Assembly (NCBI RefSeq): GCF_001953745.1
Contig: NZ_LWLN01000001.1
Location: 1,984,001 to 2,048,000, forward strand
Origin: Natrinema saccharevitans
GTDB taxonomy: Archaea; Halobacteriota; Halobacteria; Halobacteriales; Natrialbaceae
Direction of reading: 5' to 3'
DNA length: 64,000 nt
Shown: positions 26,899 to 28,127 of the stretch, piece after piece
How positions within the stretch are numbered: the stretch's first letter is position 1
How the letters are laid out: every line of letters starts with the position of its first letter
Made by a program: the position numbers and the translations under genes
The notes under the pieces: model-generated
What the model was told of the DNA's origin: nothing
Database searches by the model: none
What the model saw: only the letters and a program-made list of their open reading frames with translations

Positions 26899-27129
26899 AC
26901 CCGTTCTTGTCGTGTCCTTCCTCGAACGCCACTTGTACTAGCGATTTCCGACTCGGTACTGCATCGAATCAGTTCCTCGAGTCCGTTCGGACGGGGCAAT
27001 AGACCCGAGCCCCGCTTACGGGCCGACCGGCCGACTGCCGATGCCGACGGAGAGGTGGTGTGTCGAATGGTGGATTCGCCCGCGAGCGTCGACCGGCCGA
27101 CTGACCGCCGGGGCTCGAGTCGGCCCCGG

Positions 27130-27306
27130 CTACTCGAAGCCCGCGAACGTCGCCGGCGGCACCGTACAGCCACAGGGCTGAAGGTGACTCGTGTCGGGGC
27201 CGGTGACGACCGACACTGTCACCGGCTCCCCACAGTTGGGGCAGTCGGGCAGCGACCAGTCGTCGTCGGCGTCCGAATCCCGGTCGTTCGAGCGGTCCCT
27301 AGCCAT
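27130..27306 (-). CDS. Small zinc-ribbon protein, copy 1
   Basis: A 58-residue protein starting MARDRSNDRDSDADDDWSLP. CPNCGEPV and, 16 residues later, QPCGC give two cysteine knuckles and thus a single zinc ribbon; the N-terminus is acidic and flexible. The ATG overlaps the stop of the 35-codon ORF (ATGGCTAG), so translation is probably coupled. The paralogue at 27611-27781 shares CPxCGEPV, SVV, GP and PCGC. Haloarchaea have many such zinc micro-proteins with regulatory or adaptor roles; no specific function is known here. Confidence 0.75.
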   Translation of the reverse strand: MARDRSNDRDSDADDDWSLPDCPNCGEPVTVSVVTGPDTSHLQPCGCTVPPATFAGFE

Positions 27307-27406
27307 CGCAACCACCGCGTGCGGCGCGCAGCGTCGAGACTCGTCGCGTCGGGCGGTTCGTGGGTCGTGCGGGACGTTTATATCCCGGAAGTAGTAACGT
27401 AATCAT
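27299..27406 (-). CDS. 35-residue Pro/Arg-rich small ORF, copy 1
   Basis: ATG at 27406 to TAG at 27299 encodes MITLLLPGYKRPARPTNRP and 16 further residues. The tandem copy (27774-27881) is also 35 residues and shares LPGYKRPARPTNRP. Many differences between them are synonymous third-position changes (CTT/TTA for Leu, CGA/CGG for Arg, AAC/AAT for Asn, GGT/GGC for Gly), which argues for translation. The stop overlaps the zinc-ribbon ATG in both copies. It may be a leader peptide controlling the zinc gene or a partner micro-protein. Confidence 0.6.
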   Translation of the reverse strand: MITLLLPGYKRPARPTNRPTRRVSTLRAARGGCDG

Positions 27407-27414
27407 GGCAACCG

Positions 27415-27502
27415 AATCCCTGTGTGGGATTTGGAAGCCAGTCTCGGGTGCCACTACACCCGGGGCGTTTCGATGCGCCCCCTGTTTCGGAGTCTGACTT
27501 CC
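27415..27502 (-). ncRNA. Candidate structured RNA leader, copy 1
   Basis: Read on the minus strand from 27502, the transcript would form a three-way junction. An outer stem pairs 27490-27502 with 27433-27445 (12 of 13 positions, one as G-U). It encloses two hairpins, 27476-27481 with 27462-27467 (GGGGCG/CGCCCC, 8-nt loop) and 27457-27461 with 27446-27450 (GGGTG/CACCC, 6-nt loop). A further hairpin, 27426-27431 with 27415-27420 (AATCCC/GGGATT), ends 8 nt before the small-ORF ATG. The same stems are kept in copy 2. The strand is inferred from the promoter and downstream genes. Confidence 0.55.
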
Positions 27503-27527
27503 AGTTAGTACGTTTAGCTGTTCGGAC

Positions 27528-27533
27528 TTATAT
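27528..27533 (-). promoter_or_regulatory. Probable TATA box of copy 1
   Basis: The minus strand reads ATATAA here within the 18-base block GGACTTATATCTACTGTT (plus strand), identical in both copies. Its centre is 28 bp from 27502, where the outer stem begins, so the RNA would start with the stem itself. The spacer between box and stem has diverged between copies while keeping its length. Confidence 0.5.
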
Positions 27534-27610
27534 CTACTGTTCGCGCGTGAGAAGAGAGGTCGCTCGAGCGATCCAGAGCGGTGTGTCGGCAGGACTCGAG
27601 TCGGCCCCGA

Positions 27611-27781
27611 CTACTCGCGGTCCATGAGGGTGGTCGGCGACACCGCACAGCCACAGGGCTCGAGGGTGCTCGCGCCGGGACCGATGACGACCGACATCAA
27701 CACCGGTTCGCCACAGCGGGGACAGTTCGGCAGCGGTCCGTCGTCGGCCCCGTCGGACTCGCTCGCGTCGTCCTCAGTCAT
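27611..27781 (-). CDS. Small zinc-ribbon protein, copy 2
   Basis: A 56-residue protein starting MTEDDASESDGADDGPLPNC. It has CPRCGEPV and EPCGC knuckles with SVVIGP between them, matching the copy 1 protein in the core but not in the N- and C-terminal tails. The ATG overlaps the stop of the 35-codon ORF (ATGACTGA). Retention of both cysteine pairs after tail divergence suggests that both paralogues are functional. The function is unknown; a single zinc ion is expected. Confidence 0.75.
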   Translation of the reverse strand: MTEDDASESDGADDGPLPNCPRCGEPVLMSVVIGPGASTLEPCGCAVSPTTLMDRE

Positions 27782-27881
27782 CGTGGCCCCCTCGAGTAGC
27801 TCCCAGCGGCGAGGGTCGTTGCGGCGGGCGATTCGTGGGCCGTGCGGGACGTTTATATCCCGGTAAAATGAACGGAATCAT
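27774..27881 (-). CDS. 35-residue Pro/Arg-rich small ORF, copy 2
   Basis: ATG at 27881 to TGA at 27774 encodes MIPFILPGYKRPARPTNRP and 16 further residues, the same length as copy 1. The shared LPGYKRPARPTNRP core and the synonymous changes support coding. Its stop overlaps the next ATG. No domain is recognised; the Pro/Arg content resembles ribosome-stalling leader peptides, but that is speculation. Confidence 0.6.
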   Translation of the reverse strand: MIPFILPGYKRPARPTNRPPQRPSPLGATRGGHDD

Positions 27882-27889
27882 GGCAACCG

Positions 27890-27978
27890 AATCCCTGTAG
27901 TGGGGATTTGGAAGCCGGTCTCGGGTGTGTACGCACCCGGGGCGTTTCGATGTGCCCCCGTTTCGGAGCCCGACGTCC
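27890..27978 (-). ncRNA. Candidate structured RNA leader, copy 2
   Basis: Same architecture as copy 1: outer stem 27966-27978 with 27910-27922 (11 of 13 paired), hairpins 27953-27958 with 27939-27944 and 27934-27938 with 27923-27927, and a late hairpin 27903-27908 with 27890-27895. Compared with copy 1, one outer-stem pair changes from A-U to G-C, so pairing is kept by covariation. The GGGTG/CACCC stem is unchanged although its six-base loop is entirely different, and the AATCCC/GGGATT stem survives a loop-length change from 5 to 7. One closing pair of the GGGGC hairpin is lost on this strand. Confidence 0.55.
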
Positions 27979-28003
27979 AGTTTGGAACTCTACCGTTTAG
28001 GAC

Positions 28004-28009
28004 TTATAT
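28004..28009 (-). promoter_or_regulatory. Probable TATA box of copy 2
   Basis: Identical to the copy 1 box within the conserved block GGACTTATATCTACTGTT. Its centre is 28 bp from the stem start at 27978. The divergent kinase gene begins 149 bp to the right with its own box. Confidence 0.5.
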
Positions 28010-28127
28010 CTACTGTTAATCGGGTGAAAGAGAGTCCGGTCGAGCGGACTCGCGACGCGTCAGCGCCGATCCCGATGACGAGCGATCCCGACTCGAGGGC
28101 CGTCGCAGGTGATGACCCAGCCACAAT

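Follow-up and report, generated by a model that had tools for sequence, protein, structure and literature searches.

To our knowledge, only few cis-regulatory RNAs are known from archaea. PMC8241225 names a single archaeal riboswitch with experimental proof, the fluoride riboswitch of Thermococcus kodakarensis, and the S15 ribosomal-protein leaders, situated before rpsO operons, are cis-regulatory RNAs of Halobacteria (PMC7247131). Joint action of a leader RNA and a small translated ORF that is linked to the gene following it is described for the B12 riboswitch of Mycobacterium tuberculosis in the part of PMC11260477 consulted here. Haloarchaeal gene pairs with 4- and 8-nt stop/start overlaps are coupled by termination-reinitiation (PMC6728339, PMC10666635); in Haloferax volcanii such overlaps are among the classes typical of this process, and coupling is almost lost when some 20 nt separate the two genes (PMC10666635). 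Furthermore, haloarchaea possess CPxCG zinc-finger micro-proteins of fewer than 70 amino acids with four cysteines (PMC11241148, PMC6562870); a word search of PMC6562870 returned no mention of UTRs or leaders.

The locus analyzed here resembles each of these systems in part. Like translational strand-exchange riboswitches, its leader is a conserved structured RNA in which one strand would be common to the closing helix (P1) and to an alternative hairpin at the start codon (P4), and it recurs many times in front of genes of one class; unlike the known translational riboswitches, it would use the bases preceding the AUG and not a Shine-Dalgarno sequence as the pairing arm, and it matches no Rfam 15 family. 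With the S15 leaders it would share the role of a cis-regulatory RNA in Halobacteria, but it precedes genes for small zinc proteins. The upstream ORF recalls that of the B12 riboswitch, yet it recurs in about 110 sampled units, with 4- or 8-nt overlaps and an unconserved peptide, which sets it apart from the M. tuberculosis case as far as the consulted part of PMC11260477 describes it. The overlaps equal those of haloarchaeal termination-reinitiation pairs, whose first gene encodes a subunit, whereas here it would be a short ORF that follows a structured leader and matters by position only. The encoded proteins resemble the CPxCG micro-proteins in size, in having a CPxCG motif and in cysteine number but carry PCGC instead of CPxCG as their second motif and belong to no Pfam or NCBIfam family at cut-off.

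The window, that is the whole 64,000-nucleotide stretch of Natrinema saccharevitans DNA that was analyzed, contains between positions 27130 and 28008 on the minus strand two tandem units, each consisting of a promoter and a structured leader followed by an ORF of 35 codons and the gene for a zinc ribbon, with the following features:

28003..28008, minus strand: copy A promoter TATA box (GTAGATATAAGT), alignable across every Natrinema copy; P1 5' arm about 30 nt away
27882-27978, minus strand: copy A leader (96-97 nt, range of both copies)
27972..27978, minus strand: copy A P1 5' arm (arm A), GGACGTC; predicted RNA 5' end, one mismatch to the 3' arm, P1 covariation
27939..27957, minus strand: copy A predicted hairpin P2, conserved GAAA in the loop
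27923..27938, minus strand: copy A predicted hairpin P3, GGGTG-CGTACA-CACCC, loop hypervariable
27910..27916, minus strand: copy A P1 3' arm (arm B), GGCTTCC, common to P1 and P4
27882..27916, minus strand: copy A predicted hairpin P4, arm B with pre-AUG arm GGTTGCC; in the free MFE, register-aware tests
27774..27881, minus strand: copy A upstream ORF, 35 codons (35 aa), overlapping the zinc gene by 8 nt
27845..27862, minus strand: copy A predicted hairpin P5, CGGGATATAAACGTCCCG, 19 nt past the A of the AUG; fixed distance, covariation (0/500 shuffles)
27611..27781, minus strand: copy A zinc-ribbon gene, 56 aa, CPRCGEPV...PCGC, family coding constraint
27527..27532, minus strand: copy B TATA box, promoter
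27407-27502, minus strand: copy B leader (96-97 nt, range of both copies)
27496..27502, minus strand: copy B P1 5' arm (arm A), GGAAGTC, predicted RNA 5' end
27462..27482, minus strand: copy B predicted hairpin P2
27446..27461, minus strand: copy B predicted hairpin P3, GGGTG-TAGTGG-CACCC
27433..27439, minus strand: copy B P1 3' arm (arm B), GGCTTCC
27407..27439, minus strand: copy B predicted hairpin P4, pre-AUG arm GGTTGCC; register-aware tests, folding
27299..27406, minus strand: copy B upstream ORF, 35 codons (35 aa), 8-nt overlap with the zinc gene
27370..27387, minus strand: copy B predicted hairpin P5; fixed distance, covariation
27130..27306, minus strand: copy B zinc-ribbon gene, 58 aa if started at ATG (61 aa with the GTG at 27315); block 89% identical to the single copy of relatives

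All parts of the four-part unit that the original prediction had placed here twice, in the same order and on the same strand, were thus recovered, with corresponding blocks 475-481 bp apart and 75-86% identical. Both leaders are more stable than dinucleotide shuffles (z = -2.4 and -4.0), and chance can be dismissed as the origin of the unit because the leader is present seven times in this Natrinema genome and hundreds of times elsewhere. A hairpin CCGAC...GTCGG, possibly a terminator, followed by GGCCGG.TCGG and CTCGAGT, is shared 3' of the zinc genes (window 27024-27037 and 27090-27103; 3' flanks of L009-L013, L017, L023 and L035), and an imperfect 18-nt inverted repeat (27106-27123/28088-28105) surrounds the tandem pair.

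The duplication itself, which had been put at the centre of the original prediction, is real but its tandem arrangement is incidental, because three relatives (G004, G006 and G173) have just one copy at this locus, with the flanks unchanged. The block that carries the single copy shares 89-90% identity with the copy B side, as compared with 79% (G006) and 75% (G004) for copy A. The relatives may have lost one copy of an old duplication, or copy A may have evolved faster. Another pair of leaders, about 1.1 kb apart, was seen at L103 (G106:C1:2398900-2401800), where no CPxCG gene was recognised directly behind.

The leader is a dispersed family in salt-loving archaea that was previously undescribed. 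A DNA search returned eight matches in the window's own genome and at least one match (E <= 0.001) in 23 of the 25 Natrinema genomes searched (G000 to G024). Covariance models were built from 25 copies (R1) and from 59 divergent copies (R2). Far from being confined to this strain, the leader was found with R2 in 113 of 392 Halobacteriales genomes, covering 41 of 95 genera, and in a phylum sample of 197 genomes all matching genomes were Halobacteriales. Copy numbers reach about 19 per genome, three genomes from a single genus of family f4 having 17-19 and one Haladaptatus genome 18; near-consensus copies occur, among others, in Natrinema, Natrialba, Halopiger, Halovivax, Halostagnicola, Natronorubrum and Natribaculum. 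The expectation that no described system has this make-up held as well: no Rfam 15 family was matched, neither by ten divergent loci (0 matches) nor by the window region (best E = 1.1), and no paper describing the leader was found. The many dispersed copies, the coupled leader ORF and the folded 5' end are reminiscent of a small selfish or mobile element, either MITE-like or a type I toxin-antitoxin system of the hok/mok type, and some Haladaptatus copies indeed reside on plasmids beside winged-helix and sometimes PIN genes. Such an origin is nevertheless very unlikely, as the window locus is syntenic in three relatives, orthologous copies exist in several species, neither a transposase nor a boundary was seen in the loci read, and zinc ribbons are not membrane toxins. 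A scan of a viral contig collection with the exact Natrialbaceae P3-P1 pattern gave no match.

From 5' to 3', the predicted RNA consists of a three-way junction in which P1 (consensus GGAAGCC...GGCTTCC) encloses P2, with a loop ending in GAAA, and P3 (GGGTG-loop-CACCC), followed by hairpin P4, the AUG and hairpin P5. Judging from the spacing to the TATA box, we infer that the leader is transcribed and that transcription starts 30-31 nt past this box at the first G of P1; this predicted start falls on the same G in Natrialbaceae and Haladaptatus alike, despite otherwise different promoters. In alignment A2, 97.4% of P1 cells are paired, and three pairs show changes in both partners. The P1/P3 structure has a higher covariation score than any of the 500 shuffles and any slid control. 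The P3 stem and the outer P1 pairs are nearly invariant within the sampled families, the elements having been chosen partly by those very sequences. Covariation in P1 and P5 together with the position before start codons in many genomes qualifies the leader as a conserved structured RNA in a predicted mRNA 5' UTR. A pseudoknot of the P2 loop with the 5' junction was considered and dropped; it fits some Halovivax-type copies (CGCA/TGCG, CGCC/GGCG, TGCC/GGCA) and is not general.

The loop of P3 is the variable part of this fold. Among Haladaptatus copies (L091, L093, L094, L096, L138-L141 and L191-L201) the RNA core is 98.8% identical, third codon positions 76% and the P3 loop 43%, as calculated from 27 non-independent pairs. 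The loop consensus is weak (YUGGAR; CURRARR); of 64 seven-base loops, 54 have U at position 2. Several loops co-occur with their own reverse complement; pairing of the loop elsewhere within its own unit was not enriched. In Haladaptatus promoters the TATA box is surrounded by palindromes that differ from copy to copy. Upstream of the element, seven of the nine Haladaptatus copies with enough flank (L091, L094, L096, L138-L141) have a small, divergently oriented winged-helix-like gene, and at L204 and L207 a PIN-domain (VapC-like) gene comes after the winged-helix-like gene.

Instead of closing P1, its 3' arm can pair with the bases immediately preceding the AUG, forming P4. The two arms of P1 and the pre-AUG arm change together between lineages, as in GGAAGCC/GGCTTCC/GAAGCC-AUG, GGAAGA/GGTCTTCC/GAAGACC-AUG, GGGAAC/GGGTTCCC/GAACCC-AUG and GGAAAGCC/GGCTTTCC/AAAGCC-AUG (in the order P1 5' arm, P1 3' arm, pre-AUG arm), and P1 and P4 therefore look like mutually exclusive alternative structures of a predicted strand-exchange switch. 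At least four contiguous outer P4 pairs can be formed in 145 of 150 elements, and the longest run of pairs averages 5.49 as compared with 4.58 +/- 0.06 upon permutation of the pre-AUG arms. Within Natrialbaceae the pre-AUG register tracks base 7 of the P1 3' arm (86/10 vs 1/10), and the energy of the P4 hairpin is -12.2 kcal/mol versus -10.4 +/- 0.15 kcal/mol with permuted arms. A fixed-column count of P4 pairs on alignment A2 did not rise above its own shuffles, which we attribute to changes of register; only the register-aware tests were positive. For all shuffle and permutation tests of this analysis it must be kept in mind that the sequences are related, which weakens the tests, and that p-values are not literal.

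When copies were folded, the P1 state was the minimum in 102 of 125 and P4 lay within 3 kcal/mol in 24; the window copies are near-bistable, the free minimum being 1.0-1.1 kcal/mol below the P1-forced state. The usual stability of P1, the location of the start codon between two hairpins and the fixed distance of P5 would also suit an unregulated module for constitutive expression, in which P1 shields the 5' end while P4 and P5 position the ribosome on an AUG lacking a Shine-Dalgarno sequence, a sequence that is not strictly needed for haloarchaeal translation (PMC8241225). We consider this quite unlikely; it leaves unexplained why the pre-AUG arm changes together with P1 in such a way that either could pair with the same strand.

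Hairpin P5, of which the original prediction makes no mention, lies at a fixed distance behind the start codon. It begins at +19 (87 copies), +18 (9) or +20 (1) from the A of the AUG, i.e. in 97 of 109 copies of a set that includes one misfiled Haladaptatus copy, L141, by which this and the other totals for the set shift by one. Its covariation score lies above 500 of 500 shuffles, with 31 double-change cells versus 12.8 expected, and P5-like hairpins at about equal distance were recognised by eye in distant families (L092, L247, L248, L250, L253). In the window, P5 lies inside the upstream ORF, and in Natrinema it resembles a second TATA box: CGGGATATAAACGTCCCG, nearly invariant in this genus, includes a TATAAA some 70 nt upstream of the zinc start. 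On this ground the leader might be regarded as a separate non-coding RNA gene, with the zinc gene transcribed from a promoter of its own. In relatives, however, the TATA letters are replaced (GCTTAAACAT, CAAAAAGG, CTTAAACA) and the P5 stem is kept through paired changes. We reject the internal promoter because the letters vary while the stem covaries; the upstream ORF, moreover, remains open and overlaps the zinc start, and the reading as two separate genes is highly improbable.

This upstream ORF has likewise been retained over long periods. Frame 0 is open for at least 33 codons in 104 of the 109 Natrialbaceae copies (17 and 5 for the other frames), and the ORF ends inside the zinc gene, with a stop/start overlap of 4 nt (49 copies), 8 nt (30) or 11 nt (6), in 85 of 109 copies, so that the long-term selection on the unit proposed from the window alone finds support across genera. 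The 35-codon ORF of the original prediction is accordingly real as an open frame; as a conserved peptide it is not borne out. In its second half, after P5, substitutions are distributed over codon positions as 38/56/49, with 25 synonymous versus 81 nonsynonymous codon changes. For the zinc core, the corresponding values from part of these pairs are 26/19/56 and 48/35. Unlike the zinc core, the second half of the ORF is free of amino-acid constraint, and a conserved regulatory peptide was rejected for it; the two window ORFs had no match in Pfam or NCBIfam. Because the frame is kept open without such constraint after P5, we infer that translation through the ORF matters and its peptide does not. 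In one Natrialbaceae genome (L246/L404) the upstream ORF and the zinc ribbon form one continuous frame of 107 amino acids, possibly an evolutionary intermediate, and outside Natrialbaceae the leader's AUG usually opens the metal-binding protein directly.

The genes behind the leader mostly encode small Cys-rich proteins, among them CPxCG ribbons, a HalOD1-like plus ribbon protein, a SWIM protein in Haladaptatus (annotated as 'SWIM zinc finger family protein') and others that stay below the Pfam cut-offs. The leaders L257 and L258 deviate in preceding a 101-aa protein without CxxC motif. In the alignment of the zinc ribbons, which are putative metal binders, C20, C23, C43 and C45 are invariant and the second motif is PCGC. 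Pfam and NCBIfam searches of the zinc proteins yielded sub-threshold matches only, none at cut-off. The AlphaFold model of the 56-aa protein has a pLDDT of 76, and a Foldseek comparison of the zinc-ribbon model with the PDB returned mostly ribosomal zinc proteins, none of them significant. Association with the leader is close: it is present at 46 of 53 zinc homologues in six genomes, and of the other seven three retain remnants of the ORF and P5 (L395, L396, L401) and one retains the promoter (L400), so that zinc homologues elsewhere do not as a rule lack it. In genus g18 (L097, L098, L100, L102, L405) 112-aa proteins with a sub-threshold HalOD1-like part and a CPxCG ribbon follow the leader. 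Throughout the G106 genome, zinc-ribbon matches recur in pairs about 150-250 bp apart (on contig 1, e.g. 3614930/3615097, 660437/660595, 1446493/1446743), which suggests double-ribbon or tandem genes.

The nature of these proteins bears on the question of the signal. Nearly all are small, Cys-rich and possibly nucleic-acid-binding, in several folds, and ribosomal proteins dominate the Foldseek list, albeit without significance. Autogenous control, by which the small zinc protein itself or a paralogue would bind the leader and shift P1/P4 without any small-molecule ligand, could therefore be imagined, and the halobacterial S15 leaders provide a precedent (PMC7247131). On the other hand, unrelated proteins (CPxCG ribbon, SWIM and others) reside behind the same leader, which makes one shared protein fold as the ligand unlikely, and the variable P3 loop tracks the similarity of the zinc proteins weakly at most (r = 0.11 and 0.04). 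On balance, we judge autogenous control unlikely.

The best explanation, which we regard as probable though by no means certain, is that the leader is a cis-acting, riboswitch-like element for translational control of small zinc proteins. P1, P4, P5, the co-changing segments, the open frame and the overlaps are all supported by the comparison of the copies. Each unit would give rise to one mRNA that starts at the P1 5' arm and whose leader folds into a compact three-way junction of P1, P2 and P3. With P1 closed the bases before the AUG would be free, with P4 closed they would be buried, and P5, 19 nt past the AUG, would lie about at the front edge of an initiating ribosome. The closed P1 would thus represent the translating state, a direction guessed from geometry, and a signal, be it a ligand, a metal or a protein, would shift the balance between P1 and P4. 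In Natrialbaceae the ribosome would first translate the upstream ORF (mostly 31-50 codons), the peptide being unimportant, terminate inside the start of the zinc gene and presumably reinitiate there, so that the switch would set the output of zinc protein. In other families the same AUG would start the small metal-binding protein directly. A more specific version, a native haloarchaeal riboswitch class of up to about 19 copies per genome that would sense a metal or metabolite and, by means of a hairpin-clamped start and a translated but sequence-free uORF, would govern the output of an entire family of tiny metal-binding proteins, with the P3 loop as a copy-specific address for a trans-acting partner, is less probable.

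If the proposed translational control is correct, haloarchaea possess a widespread multi-copy class of leaders in a genetically tractable group, tied to mostly little-characterised small zinc proteins. The control of these proteins, haloarchaeal initiation on leaders without Shine-Dalgarno sequence and upstream ORFs that would act purely by position could then be put to the test now.
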